A stretch of 64,000 nt of DNA from Siphlonurus alternatus. Lineage: Eukaryota > Arthropoda > Insecta > Ephemeroptera > Siphlonuridae. The notes below the pieces were generated by a model that was given only the letters and a program-made list of their open reading frames with translations, searched no databases and had not been told where the DNA came from. The DNA is taken from assembly GCA_949825025.1 (NCBI GenBank), contig OX463781.1, positions 43,889,469 to 43,953,468 of the forward strand. Direction: 5' to 3'. This document shows positions 2,474-64,000 of the stretch, piece after piece. Within the stretch, counting starts at the first letter, position 1; every line of letters begins with the position of its first letter. Both the position numbers and the translations under genes were made by a program.

Positions 2474-2547
2474 ATTTTTTTAGATTCCCGGACAACTCGG
2501 AGCGGGGGCAACTGGGAGCCGGACGGCTCGGAGCCAAACGTGTTTGC

Positions 2548-2712
2548 TAGGACAACTCGGAGCGCGGACAACTTGGAGCGCGGACAACTCGGAGCGCGGA
2601 CAACTCGGAGCGCGGACAATTCGGAGCACGGACAGCTCGGAGCCATGGCAGGACAACTCGGAACGCGGACAACTCGGAGCGCGGACAACTCGGAGCGCGG
2701 ACAACTCGGAGC
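2548..2712. repeat. 16-bp minisatellite, left arm
   Basis: About ten tandem copies of GCGGACAACTCGGAGC with minor variants (ACTTGG, ATTCGG, GGACAG) and one interruption CCATGGCAGGACAACTC near 2643-2660. CpG-rich in an AT-rich setting. Open frames across it are artefacts. Confidence 0.9.
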
Positions 2713-2755
2713 AACGTATAATATACATATTCGGATCAATTTCAGCTATTTTCAT

Positions 2756-2795
2756 CGGTATCCGGAGAACTCCCGCTCCGAGTTGTCCGGGAATC
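2756..2795. mobile_element. 39/40-bp micro-insertion made only of the fold-back family's two ends
   Basis: The left arm has 48 bp that the otherwise homologous right arm lacks. The extra segment is a GGTATCCGGAGAACTC end joined head to head to a CGAGTTGTCCGGGAATC end, flanked by the direct repeat ATTTTCATC (2748-2756 and 2796-2804). The right arm has a single ATTTTCATC at the equivalent place (an empty site). With a 9-bp duplication the insert is 39 bp, and its two ends are exactly the left and right ends of the 1,074-bp element that contains it. Confidence 0.85.
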
Positions 2796-3335
2796 ATTTT
2801 CATCATAATGTCATTATCAATATTTCTCTGCATTTTTATATGCACATAAAATATTATATAGCAACCATTTATAATTATATTTTTCTACTTAATTTATCCA
2901 CTTAATTATCCACCTCATTCATCGTTTTAAAGTTCCTTGTGTATCTAATATTTGAAATTAAATAATACAAAACATTCATTGAAGACTAAGGGCTTTAATT
3001 ATTTCTCATAATAATATTGAATACAATAACTTTATACAAAAAAAATATTTCAGTTCATTAGCCCAATATTAACAATAATACAAAATTACAGTTAATTAAG
3101 TTAGTTAATGAAGAAATCATCAATGATTCAGAAGTCATGTAATAAAAACATAAAAAATCACAAAGTTTATAAACAATGGTCATCATGATGAAGGTGTTGC
3201 AGTATGTGCTGCTTTAACGTAATAATGTACATTTAATCATTAGTCAGTCAGTGTGCATATAAGAATGCAGAGAAATATTGATAATGACATTATGATGAAA
3301 ATAGCTGAAATTGATCCGAATATGTATATTATACG

Positions 3336-3492
3336 TTGCTCCGAGTTGTCCGCGCTCCGAGTTGTCCGCGCTCCGAGTTGTCCTACCATGGCTCCGAGTT
3401 GTCCGTGCTCCGAGTTGTCCGCGCTCCGAGTTGTCCTGCCATGGCTCCAGGATGTCCGCGCTCCGAGTTGTTCGCGCTCCGAGTTGTCCTAG
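3336..3492. repeat. 16-bp minisatellite, right arm (inverted)
   Basis: The reverse complement of the left-arm array: tandem GCTCCGAGTTGTCCGC units with two CCATGG-containing variants (near 3388 and 3440), so copy number and order differ slightly from the left arm. Confidence 0.9.
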
Positions 3493-3586
3493 CAAACACG
3501 TTTGGCTCCGAGCCGTCCGGCTCCCAGTTGCCCCCGCTCCGAGTTCTCCGGATACCATTTTTTTAGTATTTTGAAATAAAAATATT

Positions 3587-3755
3587 GGGGGACATTCACA
3601 AAGCACTTTAACAACCACTTTAGCCTCAATTTTTAACCCTGGTGCTAAACATGGTGCTAAACCATAGGCTAAACATGGTTAACCCCTGGTCTAGCGCCAG
3701 GGATAAAAAATCGAGGCTAAAGTGGGTGTTAAAATATGCTTTGTGAATGTCTTCT
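3587..3755. mobile_element. Harbinger-like MITE, ATT target duplication
   Basis: Inverted ends GGGGGACATTCACAAAGC and GCTTTGTGAATGTC, with ATT on both sides (3584-3586, 3756-3758). The body is nearly palindromic and built of CTAAACATGGTTAA-like segments. A related copy lies at 40511. A 3-bp duplication and G-rich ends suggest PIF/Harbinger. Confidence 0.75.
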
Positions 3756-3758
3756 ATT

Positions 3759-5500
3759 ATGTATTTAAATATAAAAATTATAACAATTTAAATGATGTTT
3801 TCCCCATTATTATGTTATACTCAATGATGATACGAACACGGATAAATCAGTAGGAGCGATCAAATTATTGCTGCTGCTGCAGTCAAATTAACTATAAGCC
3901 AATATTTACTCTGCCATTAAAGCCGCTGCAGTCATCACTTCGGTTATCACACAAACTGAAACTAATAAACTGCGCATCAAAGTGAGAACACAATTTATTA
4001 GTTATGTATAAAAGTTAATTACTGACATCACATATTCTAAAGTTAACAAAATTTATAATATTCACTCACAAAAATCATCTCATTGCATTTTTTCACCACA
4101 CAATATTTTAAGTTTAATTGGTTAATTTTTTTTATAAGATGATGTGAAAATTTGAAATGAACTACGTCCATACGGAAGAATTAAAAGATTTAAAAAGAAG
4201 GTTTGGAAGATAAAAAGTATTGTGTAACTGGATTTTTTTCAATTAAAATATACAATATATAATTTTTTGATGATCAGTCTATCGGTATTTTTCAATAGTA
4301 AATTATTATTATTATTATTAATATATTATGTAATGCAATTGAATATTAGAAAATTTCTTTTTCAAGAATTTCCACCAATTATATATATCCTCCGCATATT
4401 TGTAAATCGATATCAGCATCAAATTTTACCCGTGTATAATTATATGATTAATATTTTGTTGTTCAGATTGCATAATGCAAAGTAAAATATTCAAATTATA
4501 ATAATTACCTTTAAATTCTGTAAATAAATAATAATACGTCATGTATTTACTATATTTTTTATTTAAAAGTTTAAAAAAAAAGTAATGCATGAAATATTTA
4601 ATAGAGTTTAAAGTGCTCTACTTGTAACAGGTATATATTTTATATAGTAATACTGCTGTATATGAATATAAGCACCACAGGTATATGTAATGTATATTTA
4701 CTATACCTTTGTATATACCATCATTACTCGGTCATTATAACGAAAAACACGTCATAGTTATTGCTGCACGTTAAAAACAGGGCACTCAAAAAGTTTTCAG
4801 ACACCAAGATATGAGTTTTCATGGTTGTGGGGAGAGAGAGAGAGCTATTAGTTTGCCGTTTTACTTCACGTTTTTAGCTAGCTTCAGTGAAGAGCATTCA
4901 AGAGACCATGCGTGGCATGAGAGCATATCATGAGAGCTTCACTCAAAGTATTGAACGATCAACTAGAACTTAAAGCTTACTTTACTATGCCATACTATGG
5001 CATTTAAATAAAAATTTGTGTATCAACTGTTATATATCTTTTAAATTTTATATGTAAATTATTATACGCAAGCTTTCAAAAATATTTTTTAGAATAATTA
5101 ATGAGCGATCAATATTTTTCTTTAACTGTTATTTATATGACGTGCAATTAATTTGTAGTAATTTTATATGATGAAATTTTAAATTGCATTATTATTTAAA
5201 TTATAAGACATTAATATTTTGTATTACAAATAATTGTCCTGTAATAGTTTTTTTAAATGTCATAAATTTTAAATGTTTTTAATGTCATAATGTGAATACT
5301 GGTAGTTGCATAATAAACGTGATAATTATATTTTGGTTTATATTTGATTTAGAAAGACAATGAATAAGGTAATTATGTAATTAGTAATTACATATAGCAA
5401 ATAATGTAATAATATACCAATGAAATCATTTTTAAAAAAAAATTCAAGAAGTGCATTTCCATGCGCAAAATTAGCATAACTGAGATTGTATTTTAGTTAA
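3759..5500. other. AT-rich DNA without identifiable features
   Basis: Long A/T stretches, a short GA run near 4830 and no convincing coding frame or element ends. Confidence 0.55.
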
Positions 5501-5776: not shown

Positions 5777-6692
5777 TTTTAATAAATAGTCCCTCTCGAT
5801 CGTTCGGAATTATGAGCTATATCTGCCTACCAAAAATCCATGTGTAATACTGAGCTATTGCTTTACCGTTAATTTTATAATTGCATATATACCTGATATA
5901 TAGCAGATAGCTCATTATTCCGGACAAGGGATTTAATGTTGTTAGCTTTCATCTACATAAAACGTATTTATAATTATCTTTCTAAAATCATTTCTTGTGT
6001 TAATTATGATCATTTCTATATCTATTATTTATTCTATAAAAGTGCAGTGTACAATTTACTATTCCTAACAAATACATATTATATATAAGCAAAATACATA
6101 AAAATTGCTATTTTGTTTTCTGTTTTTGATTCTAATCAATCATTATTTCATTGATTATCATTGACAATGTAACCATAAAAAAATTATGCACATGATATGA
6201 TAAATTTTTCAGTTTTAATTTAAAATATACACTATAAAAAAGCAACGTGGTGCATTGCTTCATAATATTAATTATAACAGATTAATATACTCCAAACTTT
6301 TTATTCTGACGATGTAGAAAAAAAAATCCAAGTAAAAACACATATATTTAAATAATCGTTAGTTAATTGAAAGTATCATTGAATTTCGTTTCATTCACAT
6401 GCAAGACAGGCAGTCTTCACTTTGCTTCACAAAACACGTAAAAACGCTTTAAGAGGGATACGCGATCAAGCTACACAAGCGATACCATTCTGATCGGGTG
6501 ACAACCTCTAATTGATATAAAATAAAATCTTTTATTCCATTTACAATTCAATTTGAAACCTCAGTGTTGAAAAAAAAAGGTTAGTTTGATTAAAAAACAT
6601 GTTAATTATTCTATATTAATTGAATAATTATTGAGTTATATGTAAAATTAAACACGAAATAAATATTTGTTATACTTAAAATAGTTTAAAAC
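5777..6692. other. AT-rich DNA without identifiable features
   Basis: No coding frame; one region of higher complexity near 6400-6500 (GCAAGACAGGCAGTCTTCAC) is not recognised. Confidence 0.5.
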
Positions 6693-7055
6693 AATGGAGT
6701 ATCGTCCTCATTTTTTTACTGCAGAAATGGATAGAGCGTGCAAAGTTATGCTATCCTTATTTTTTTCAGATTTTTTACAGCCCGGAAACTATTTTTAAAA
6801 AATTATTGAAAGTTCTTTTTGTGACGTTATGAGCCACCGCACCTTAAGAAAAAGGTGGGACTTGTCGCCGCGTGACGTCACAAAAAGGACTTTCAATAAT
6901 TTTTTAAAAATACTTCCCGGGCTATAAAAAATCGAAAAAAAATCAGGGTAGCATAACTTTGCACACTCCAAGGTGTATAGAGGTTTATAAACCTCTATAC
7001 ACCTTGGCATGCTCTCCATTTCTGCAATAAAAAAGTTTGAGGTCGATACTCCATT
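6693..7055. mobile_element. GACGTC-bearing MITE, copy 1
   Basis: Ends AATGGAGTATCGTCCTCA and GAGGTCGATACTCCATT are inverted repeats, and the inversion continues through GCAAAGTTATGCTA, TTTCAGATTTTTTA and TTATTGAAAGT. The centre has CGCGTGACGTCACAAAAAGG. The right arm is interrupted by a 40-bp perfect palindrome (6968-7007). Same family as the copies at 20424, 29452, 30057, 45565, 54575, 58080 and 62722. Confidence 0.85.
6968..7007. repeat. 40-bp perfect palindrome inside MITE copy 1
   Basis: CCAAGGTGTATAGAGGTTTA followed by its exact complement. Other family members read GCACCCTCTATCC continuously here, so this is an insertion or template-switch product. Confidence 0.9.
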
Positions 7056-7153: not shown

Positions 7154-7369
<216 letters not shown>

Positions 7370-13713: not shown

Positions 13714-17255
<3,542 letters not shown>

Positions 17256-24936: not shown

Positions 24937-26232
<1,296 letters not shown>

Positions 26233-29451: not shown

Positions 29452-29773
29452 AATGGAGTATCGTCTTCAATTTTTTGTATTGCAAAAATGAATAGAGGGT
29501 GCAAAGTTATGCTACATTGATTTTTTTCAGATTTTTTAGAGCCCTTGAACTATTTTTAAAAAATTATTGAAAGTTCTTTTTGTGACGTCTCGAGACGCCG
29601 CTCCTTAGGAAAAAGATAGGACTTGCCGCCGCGTGACGTCACAAAAAGGACTTTCAATAATTTTTTTAAAAATACTTCCCTGGCTCTAAAAAATCTGAAA
29701 AAAATCAGGGTAGCAAAACGTTTCACGTTCTATCTATTTCTGCAATAAAAAAAATTGAGGTCAATACTCCATT
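29452..29773. mobile_element. GACGTC-bearing MITE, copy 3
   Basis: Ends AATGGAGTATCGTCTTCA and GAGGTCAATACTCCATT. Centre TGTGACGTCTCGAGACGCC and GCGTGACGTCACAAAAAGG. 322 bp, no coding. Confidence 0.88.
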
Positions 29774-29790
29774 GTGAAGTTTTAGAGACA

Positions 29791-29911
29791 ATCACTACGT
29801 TTACATGACGTTGTTTAATATGGATTCGTTGACGACGCCTCATAAGAATAACATTATCCGTCGTCAACGAATGCGTATTTAATACCTTCATGATGTATGA
29901 ACGTAAGTGAT
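29791..29911. mobile_element. 121-bp palindromic MITE (ATCACT ends)
   Basis: Outer ends ATCACTACGTTTACATGA and its diverged complement near ACGTAAGTGAT; a strong inner stem ATTCGTTGACGACG with CGTCGTCAACGAAT. It lies 17 bp after MITE copy 3. Confidence 0.65.
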
Positions 29912-30056
29912 TGATAATATTCTGAGAATACGCGTTAAGTGTTGTTATTATTGAAATTTTACTCTAAAACTAAATAAGTAAGCAACATGAAAAGGTTTTA
30001 ATGTACACATTTAAAAGAAACGTAAAATGTAAACAATTATTTCAATATAATTTCTC

Positions 30057-30374
30057 AATGGAGTATTGTCCTCAATTTTTTTTATTGCAGAAATGGATAG
30101 AGGGTGCAAAGTTATGCTACCCTGATTTTTTTCAGATTTTTTGAGACCTGGAACTATTTTTAAAAAATCATTGAAAGTCCTTTTTGTGACGTCACGCGGC
30201 GGCAAGTCCTATCTTTTCTTAAGGAGCGGCGTCTCGTGACGTCACGAAAAGAACTTTCAATAATTTTTTAAAAATAGTTCTCGGACTCTAAAAAATTTGA
30301 AAAAAATCAGGGTAGCATAACTTTGCACCCTCTATCCATTTTGCAATAAAAAAAAATGAGGACAATACTCTATT
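30057..30374. mobile_element. GACGTC-bearing MITE, copy 4
   Basis: Ends AATGGAGTATTGTCCTCA and GAGGACAATACTCTATT; two TGACGTCA sites (30187, 30237) flank the AGGAGCGGCGTC centre. Only about 280 bp from copy 3. Confidence 0.9.
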
Positions 30375-30815
30375 GTCCATTGAAAAAACATTTATTTTAA
30401 AATTTCACAATCTTTCATTGAATGACATCTTATTCCATTTAGCAGAAGTGCTTTCTAAAAATAAACCCTCATTATATTCCAAAATCTTAATATTTATAAC
30501 TTAACTAAATAATAAAATTTTAAAAGACAAAGCTATTTCTGTGGTTCTTGTTAATTTAAGTGCTACTAGACAAAAATAAATAAAAACAAACTTTATTATT
30601 TTTAGTCCCATTGTCTGGAAACGAAGTAAGGGGATATTATTTAAGTTTATGGACACAACGAGTGTCTCTCATTTAGGCTCTTGACTTTTAGATGAGCCAG
30701 ACTCTGTCTCAATTTGCAGTCTCTAAAAAGCATTCAAGTGTCACTTTAAATTAGTTTTATATCAAATAAGTTTTGATAATAAATAATTTTATATTTGGCA
30801 AAACTATTTTAGCTT
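30375..30815. other. AT-rich DNA without identifiable features
   Basis: No supported feature. Confidence 0.45.
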
Positions 30816-45016: not shown

Positions 45017-45564
45017 TGGAAATTGTAGACTGTGAATTTAGCAAGACTTTAATTTTTTAATATAAAAAAACATAAAATTTTACTGAATAAGTTTTTAGTA
45101 ATATTTACCTACTATAAAAGTAAAATTAATTTCAAATATAGAAAATTTTTGATCAAACATTATAACTTAAAATATTCTTAACTTTAAAGTAAACGTGAGA
45201 GTTAAAGTAACTCAAATTTTTCATTTAATTTGTATTTATTCAGCAATATTTTTTTTTTTTTTTTTACTGCACATTACATCAAAAATATTTAGTTTGAAAC
45301 TTTTTATTATTAAATCAAAATGTATATCAGCTCATATTTACAATTATTTGGGTTGAAAACTTACTTTGAAATGATGTTAAAAAAGTAAATTAAGTGTTAA
45401 TATTTATTTTATGAATATTTCATGATGAAACCAAAGAACTAATATCTAGTACATATTAATTCTTTGATGAAACGTAAATTATGCACATTTTAAAATTTTG
45501 CTGTTTCCTTAAGCAATTTTCCATCGTCGCGTCTCAGAAAAGACGTTCATGTTAATTGCAGTTC
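45017..45564. other. AT-rich DNA without identifiable features
   Basis: No supported feature. Confidence 0.5.
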
Positions 45565-45888
45565 AATGGAGTATTGACCTCAAAATTTTTTATTGCAGAA
45601 ATGGATAGAGCGTACAAAGTTATGCTACCCTGATTTTTTCCAGATTTTTTACAGACCAAGGAAGTATTTTTAAAAAATTATTGAAAGTCCTTTTTGTGAC
45701 GTCACGCGGTGGCAAGTCCTATCTTTTTTCTTAAGGAGCGGCGTCTCGTGACGTCACAAAAAGATATTTCAATAATTTTTTAAGAATAGTTCCCGGGCTT
45801 TAAAAAATCTGAAAAAAATCAGGGTAGCATAACTTTGCACCCTCTATCCATTTCTGCAATAAAAAAAAATTGAGGTCGATAATCCATT
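45565..45888. mobile_element. GACGTC-bearing MITE, copy 6
   Basis: Ends AATGGAGTATTGACCTCA and GAGGTCGATAATCCATT; TGACGTCA at 45697 and 45749 flanking GGAGCGGCGTC. 324 bp; close to the copy at 30057. Confidence 0.9.
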
Positions 45889-57977: not shown

Positions 57978-58506
57978 TAAAGTCAAAGTAATTTTATATT
58001 CACTTGGGAAGTAATCTGAAGTTTGTGACTATTCTGTTTGCAATTAAGCTTTGAATTTTTGCACAGGGTTTTGCAGTACAATGGACAACATACATGAAAA
58101 AATTTTATTGCAGAAATGAATAAGTGGTACAAAATTATGTTACTCTGAATTTTTTCAGATTTTTTTGAAACCCGGAACTATTTTTAAATAATTATTGAAA
58201 GTCCTGTGATTTCAGTTGGCACCCCTGCAGCCTTAATAAAAAGGATAGAGACTGGACGCCTATTGACGCCTCCAGGGGGCGTGGCCGCACTTTCAATAAT
58301 TATTTAAAAATAGTTCTGGGTTTCAAAAAAATGTAAAAGAATTCAGAGTGGCATAATTTGGTACCCTCTATTCATTTCTGCAATAAAAAAATTTCATGTA
58401 TGTTGTCCATTACTGAAATATGGTTATGTGAAATTGCAATACTGAATTATGAATAGAAAGGCCAGAAACCTTACACTTCGAATATCATGTAATTTAAATT
58501 CAGCTG
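57978..58506. mobile_element. CAGTCAA-type element interrupted by a MITE
   Basis: The two flanks of the 58080-58411 MITE are, read in reverse complement, the two halves of the element intact at 60818-61030: the left flank contains the complement of CTGCAAAACCCTGTGC and ACAGAATAGTCACAAAC, the right flank the complement of ATTGCAATTTCACA and TTTCTGGCC. Removing the MITE restores the order of the 60818 copy. Confidence 0.75.
58080..58411. mobile_element. MITE copy (AATGGAC subtype), nested
   Basis: Inverted ends AATGGACAACATACATGAAA and TTTCATGTATGTTGTCCATT, then GCAGAAATGAATAAGTGGTA and TACCCTCTATTCATTTCTGC. The centre (ACGCCTATTGACGCCTCC) replaces the GACGTC core of the main subtype. 332 bp, inside a CAGTCAA-type element. 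Confidence 0.87.
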
Positions 58507-63495: not shown

Positions 63496-63782
63496 TGAAC
63501 AAAGCAACTTTATTGAAACCTTATCGAAATTAATTTGTATTATGAGCGGAGCAAACACAGAACTTCAATTGATGCTAATGTACAGCTAGTACGTTTACTC
63601 GAGGGACGCAAAAAAATAACATGTGATTGCGAACAGATATTATTCATTTTCCAATATCCTACCGAACACTAGCGTGAAAATAAAAGATAACTAGTACTAC
63701 AATACTTTCAATAAATTGCACTAAAATTTCAACCCAGCGTCTAAACATGCTTGAAATAAACGTATTACTCGTAGAATTAAGC
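63496..63782. other. AT-rich DNA without identifiable features
   Basis: No supported feature. Confidence 0.45.
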
Positions 63783-64000
63783 CGGTATCCGGAAAACTCG
63801 GTGCAGGAAAACTCGGTGCAGGAAAACTCGGTGCAATTTCAACAAGCTAGGAAAACTCGGTGCACGGTAAACTCGGAGCACGGAAAACTGGGAGCACCGC
63901 TAGGAAAACTCGGAGCATCGCATATATTGCAAGATCCCTATACTAGTATATGGATTTTGGAATATGTATATTAGCATAAAAATAATAAAATAAAACAAAA
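63783..64000. mobile_element. Third copy of the fold-back family, cut by the window edge
   Basis: Begins CCGGTATCCGGAAAACTCGG, the same terminal motif as the 2483 element, followed by about six 15-16-bp GGAAAACTCGGTGCA-type units, a GCTAGGAAAACTCGG step as in the other copy, and then GCATCGCATATATTGC where that copy has GCAACGTATAATATAC. The unit sequence has diverged (AAAACTCGGTGC versus ACAACTCGGAGC), so it is a different subfamily. Its other end lies beyond the window. Confidence 0.75.

Follow-up and report, generated by a model that had tools for sequence, protein, structure and literature searches.

Foldback elements have been linked to inversions and to the formation of satellites, and their drivers are seldom known. 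In the Drosophila FB and NOF elements, arms made of tandem repeats flank a loop and the insertion shows a 9-bp duplication, and an element in the genome of Siphlonurus alternatus can be likened to them by plan. This element lies in the window, the whole stretch of 64,000 nucleotides analysed here (assembly GCA_949825025.1, contig OX463781.1, positions 43,889,469 to 43,953,468 of the forward strand), and the question raised by the locus is what kind of element it is and which transposase moves it. We consider it, with a probability of about 0.85, to be a non-autonomous foldback DNA transposon of Phantom type (Mutator superfamily), which would have descended by internal deletion and whose transposase would be supplied in trans.

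Layout of the element in the window

The whole element is 1,074 bp long (2483-3556, + strand, A end on the left and B end on the right) and is bounded by exact copies of ATTTTTTTA at 2474-2482 and 3557-3565, so that the perfect 9-bp target duplication reported in the preliminary description is confirmed. In the A end (2483-2492, + strand) GGA comes after the asymmetric 7-bp motif GATTCCC, and in the B end (3547-3556, – strand) it comes after GGTATCC, likewise an asymmetric motif of 7 bp. The left arm (2483-2846, + strand), delimited by the inverted pairs I1, I2, I4 and I5, measures 364 bp, of which 39 bp belong to a nested insert and 9 bp to one extra repeat; the right arm (3252-3556, – strand), delimited by the inverted-repeat comparison, measures 305 bp, and the main collinear stretches, I1, I2, I4 and I5, are 94-100% complementary. 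Both arms contain arrays of the 16-bp unit GGACAACTCGGAGCGC, found by TRF at 2550-2712 (+ strand, 9.9 copies) and at 3338-3489 (– strand, 8.9 copies, with a 53-bp higher-order period too), in agreement with the arms of about 300-360 bp with tandem units described earlier. The loop, estimated before at about 400 bp, is 405 bp long (2847-3251). The window element therefore has the long inverted tandem-repeat arms around an unrelated loop that characterize a foldback, and neither a Pfam-recognised gene nor a long frame with a recognised domain is present between 2483 and 3556. Overlooked in the preliminary description were the nested 39-bp remnant, the homologous loops, with deletions and other variants, that occur in other copies, and a second element starting at 63784.

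Several other features were observed in the window. An inverted-repeat element with minisatellite-like arms (41-bp period) and ending CAGGGCTCGG occupies 43-1356; inspection by eye shows no clear target duplication and suggests that the frame at 751-1389 is a remnant of a hAT transposase. Two similar palindromic elements with GGGG(A)CATTC(A/G)CAAAG-like ends, probably MITEs, lie at 3590-3760 of the window and at about 859-1003 of another locus, L048. A repeat family of about 300 bp is present in both orientations (6691-6968, 29452-30375, 45564-45888 and 58103-58419), and nearly perfect TC/GA dinucleotide arrays of about 170-215 bp each are found at 7157-7369, 14806-15007 and 26059-26231.

Copies, target duplications and ends across the genome

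With the left arm as query, at least 73 matches were obtained in the source genome (455.7 Mb, 102 contigs), and 40 of 337 first-look candidates were scored. The copy set comprises the window and 39 distinct other places (L009-L047), L001-L008 being repeats of L009-L015 and of the window and left uncounted. The copies were found by their likeness to the left arm; an exact A end and an exact B end, with 16-bp units starting inside both, were observed directly in 38 of the 40 places, which are the copies counted below, the other two (L043 and L045) being without a full pair of ends.

Perfect flush target duplications flank 34 of these 38 copies; they are exactly 9 bp long in all 34, none being longer, and all of them are different, i.e., the dispersed foldback copies show a target duplication of fixed length. 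This supports the foldback-type transposon with 9-bp target duplications proposed in the preliminary description, which had looked to copies without them for evidence against it. Such copies are only four (L014, L019, L038 and L042), and the longest flush direct repeats among them are of 5, 1, 0 and 0 bp. When left and right flanks were paired across copies, 0 of 1,406 pairings matched, and the chance of a 9-bp flush repeat is about 1e-5 per locus if base frequencies similar to those in the flanks are assumed; the 9-bp duplications are far above chance.

Further evidence came from stretches without the element. L014 contains a paralogous, element-free stretch to which the joined flanks of L032 align over 401 bp at 96%; within the 9 bp this stretch has a 2-bp gap and one mismatch, and it is a near-empty, imperfect empty site for L032. 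The joined flanks of L022 and L044 match element-free copies of repeats in poorer alignments (76-83%), and these two copies seem to be inserted within other repeats.

As for the copies without a duplication, the loss looks like the result of later rearrangement in L038 and L019, whereas we have no explanation for L014 and L042. In L038, a 19-bp repeat at 2498-2516, AAAACGGTATCCGGAGAAC, stands on both sides in place of the normal duplication and is made of 5 bp of flank and 14 bp of the B end of the opposite side. In L019, the foldback element shows a complex rearrangement: an inverted duplication with a 29-bp A-end remnant adjoins the copy (735-994), and the ATATAATCA in it is reverse-complementary to the TGATTATAT of the far end.

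At the level of the whole genome, the B-end pattern gave 393 matches (182+211) with up to two mismatches and the A-end pattern 218 (108+110) with up to one, a figure that includes A ends within nested remnants; both reversed-pattern controls gave 0. On contig C1, from the exact matches listed and by eye, each of the 11 A ends that do not belong to a remnant is paired with an inverted B end at a distance of 0.9-1.2 kb, and, among the matches listed, 8 of 19 B ends are without such an A partner, one of them being that of L083, in which the A end differs. B ends do not always mark an element: at least five apparent B/B pairs are present among the matches listed, and the two that were tested are carried in another palindromic repeat, since both show the same inverted flank and no direct repeat. 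A/B pairs without a listed nested remnant showed perfect duplications in five of five cases tested; one flank is common to four of the five, and therefore the five copies represent two insertion events. Remnant-free copies with common flanks, as if inside another amplified repeat, were noticed at C1:455155, 4109169 and 4716128 and at C2:1541020.

The B/B pairs and the common flank would fit a non-transposon origin, in which segmental duplication, or carriage inside other repeats, would have dispersed a palindromic minisatellite. This explanation can hardly be the right one in view of the abrupt ends, of the near-empty paralogous site and of the 34 different perfect duplications; for the fetched copies it is refuted by their distinct flush duplications. 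Homology past the ends, the other point that the preliminary description had left to be checked, is accordingly absent in the fetched copies, whereas some other termini do ride in larger repeats (four of the five remnant-free copies and both of the B/B pairs tested).

The nested remnant and the age of the family

The insert in the left arm is a 39-bp unit (2757-2795, – strand) in which 24 bp from an A end are fused with 15 bp from a B end, between two copies of ATTTTCATC (2748-2756 and 2796-2804); the unoccupied counterpart in the right arm is a single GATGAAAAT at 3294-3302. The left arm, i.e., the search query, is occupied by the remnant in 38 of 38 copies. In the right arm of the same copies the site is empty in 35, occupied in two (L020 and L026) and not found in one (L040). 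The two copies that have the remnant in both arms suggest arm-to-arm copying. Sixty-four nested remnants are listed genome-wide at up to three mismatches, and at C6:26435546-26440615 lies a copy of 5.07 kb that has both ends and carries the remnant, with ACAGCGGGC as its duplication. The remnant is a marker of one subfamily, because A/B pairs without a listed remnant also exist, and these have perfect duplications.

We read the nested unit as a full insertion that would have lost its interior. The presence of both ends and of a perfect 9-bp duplication, together with the site that stands empty in the opposite arm, would also fit a mobile micro-element that transposed at 39 bp rather than a deletion remnant. 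This is unlikely: nearly all of the 64 listed units that could be placed by eye on C1-C7 adjoin a B end of the same family, with C2:2965478 and C3:28807298 equivocal and with units on contigs past C1-C7 placed only at fetched loci. A freely mobile 39-bp element was set aside, no independent copy having been recognised. If the reading as a full insertion with its interior lost is true, collapse at the hairpin base of a foldback might leave a duplication-flanked scar, which would later spread with its host element.

Divergence was observed directly in the loops. In the 19 copies that retain at least 457 of 466 loop columns, a set outside which the window copy falls, loops differ from the consensus by 0-1.5%, and by no more than 0.9% in 18 of the 19. 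The window's own copy has 405 loop columns and is 8.4% from the consensus; in all the remaining 19 copies, window included, loops are deleted or altered and the divergence figure is affected by the alignment, reaching 40% in L040. In the A arm, the outer 68 bp lie on average 0.4% from the consensus, and the number of 16-bp units varies among copies and between arms. Because the fullest loops are so close to the consensus, the burst of the family looks recent, with signs of turnover of the arrays, and insertions may still be polymorphic.

Transposase relatives and known systems

Support for the Mutator-like hint contained in the preliminary description comes from transposase remnants, observed directly in close relatives with the same arms, and from an element of the same end plan that contains FLYWCH and MULE domains. 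The remnants were compared with 28 loci from a PF10551 search of the genome. L046 (2,133 bp, duplication AACTGACAA) holds transposase pieces that resemble a first and a last exon. L080 (C9), reached through loop DNA of L046, has the same B arm and then three 3' exons, with no A end within the 5 kb read; its exons find their matches among the PF10551 loci in the corresponding order, with exons 1 and 2 against L068 at 43-45% and exon 3 against L053, L055, L066, L067 and L074 at 40-43%. L083 (C1) is a complete element of 1,797 bp with minisatellite arms, ends GGTATCC+GGA and GGTTCCC+GGA and CAATGCAAG on both sides as a 9-bp duplication, and a 104-aa frame within it is 43.8% identical to the MULE locus L068 over 89 residues (E 1.5e-23, 28 loci).

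The last exon of L046 and the remnants of L080 and L083 are homologous to the PF10551 loci. The first-exon-like piece of L046 matched 0 of the 28; it has DNA relatives elsewhere at 81% and 74%, and near its relative on C4 there is no unit array except for one weak match. Pfam searches gave nothing over cut-off for three pieces of L046 and two of L080, and for the L083 fragment MULE was not called, the best relevant row being PF00872 (E 0.074, below cut-off); the last exon of L046 gave two candidates in a protein search, none at E<=1. Genome searches with the L080 exons, the L046 piece and the L083 fragment found no intact transposase of the exact family. In particular, the DNA search with the L080 exons returned four matches, namely L080, L083 (82%) and two stretches 63 bp long. 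Of the 12 matches of the L083 fragment, those above 44% are confined to L083 and L080, and the nearest gene that is more complete is no more than 44% identical, over 89 residues.

L068 lies in an element of 3,824 bp (C11:16416351-16420174) that has CATAATGAT as a 9-bp duplication, arrays of CAATTCG units in both arms and GGTGACA+GGA and GGTTCTA+GGA as its ends; two domains in it, FLYWCH (E 4.1e-6) and MULE (E 2.3e-9), exceed the Pfam cut-offs. The second window element, a related but diverged foldback, shows a left duplication AATTAAGCC at 63775-63783 and starts at 63784 with GGTATCC+GGA and GGAAAACTCGGTGC units (63784-64000, its right end lying outside the window); read through L048 (253-2798) it is 2,546 bp long, with AATTAAGCC on both sides, ends GGTATCC+GGA and GATTGTA+GGA, arms 100% identical over 138 bp and a longest frame of 96 aa. 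L048, L083 and the C11 element each have their own 7-bp motif, GGA and tandem-unit ends, and four distinguishable groups with a common plan (7 bp, GGA, minisatellite and 9-bp duplication) are present in one genome.

A transposase of Mutator type (Phantom) is the most likely driver of the family, judging from these remnants and from the 9-bp duplications in 34 of 38 copies, within the 8-10 bp of Phantom elements. We infer that such a protein, with a FLYWCH zinc finger and a MULE domain, would act in trans, recognising the asymmetric ends (7-bp motif, GGA and first 16-bp unit), and that excision would be followed by insertion with a 9-bp stagger, giving the 9-bp duplication. The 16-bp arrays would probably be extra putative transposase-binding sites, multiplied from the terminal one, whose number may shift by slippage or unequal exchange, while one arm may overwrite the other; the copies would derive by internal deletion from a transposase-bearing ancestor.

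A foldback of the Rehavkus branch, with a PHD-finger transposase, 9-bp duplication and a minisatellite by the 3' inverted repeat, would share several of these traits, since PMC6446971 gives Rehavkus a 9-bp duplication, inverted repeats of 26-400 bp and a minisatellite. It is nevertheless highly unlikely, because the remnants match PF10551 loci in order and because FLYWCH and MULE pass the cut-off in the C11 relative, whose end plan is the same. Even less probable is a foldback of Galileo type, moved by the transposase of a P element: the long, internally repeated inverted arms of Galileo, which expand and contract (PMC3573991; see also PMC3688188), resemble those found here, whereas Galileo has a THAP transposase of P-element type and 7-bp duplications, against exactly 9 bp in 34 of 38 copies here. 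A Galileo/P origin is thus disfavoured by the 9-bp duplications and by the MULE-like remnants. The repeats in Galileo arms have been shown to contain secondary transposase-binding sites, and for Foldback and Phantom the same is stated to be untested (PMC3688188).

With the Phantom-type reading, other described systems can be compared. Tetris of Drosophila virilis (PMC4079207) has a foldback plan, 8-10 bp duplications and no autonomous copy found, and the length of its duplications led its authors to assign it to Mutator; it has only three structurally complete copies. Phantom MULEs of group 20 (PMC6446971) show 8-10 bp duplications, inverted repeats of up to 613 bp and a minisatellite in aphid members. 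The duplication length is alike, and FLYWCH and MULE occur in the C11 relative; the table of that paper concerns transposase-bearing elements, whereas the window element is non-coding and has a minisatellite in both arms.

The unit GGACAACTCGGAGCGC does not occur among the literature matches listed, and two 16-bp units in a row were searched for in viral contigs with 0 matches. The 'new fold-back family' of the preliminary description may hold for the sequence; the architecture has already been described in Tm1 (PMC3169594) and in the aphid Phantom minisatellite (PMC6446971), so that novelty may be limited to sequence. The identification is well supported and ordinary in kind, and reveals no new mechanism; within one genome, the family ties minisatellite arms to a Phantom-type transposase, being apparently young, with many clean duplications and with relatives that carry transposase pieces.

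The plan of the family is that of Tm1 of the root-knot nematodes Meloidogyne. According to PMC3169594, its ends have asymmetric 7-bp motifs, GGA and a variable array of ~14-bp units, its duplications are of 8-10 bp, mostly 9 bp (45/53), its copies are mostly non-autonomous, and one coding element with a FLYWCH+MULE transposase was placed in the Phantom subclass of Mutator. The window family also has asymmetric 7-bp motifs, GGA, tandem units and 9-bp duplications. The sequences differ (CGGTTAA, CCTACCC and CGATTCAGTATCCGC in Tm1; GATTCCC, GGTATCC and GGACAACTCGGAGCGC here) and, unlike Tm1 as described there, the family studied here yielded no coding copy of its own and one subfamily carries a nested end-to-end remnant. 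Because the end plan recurs in four groups here and in nematode Tm1, the foldback arms may be arrays derived from the terminal binding site. Tentatively, the asymmetric 7-bp motif, GGA, minisatellite and 9-bp duplication could form a conserved recognition code of animal Phantoms, with arms copied from the terminal binding site and with the 39-bp remnant as a scar of foldback collapse.
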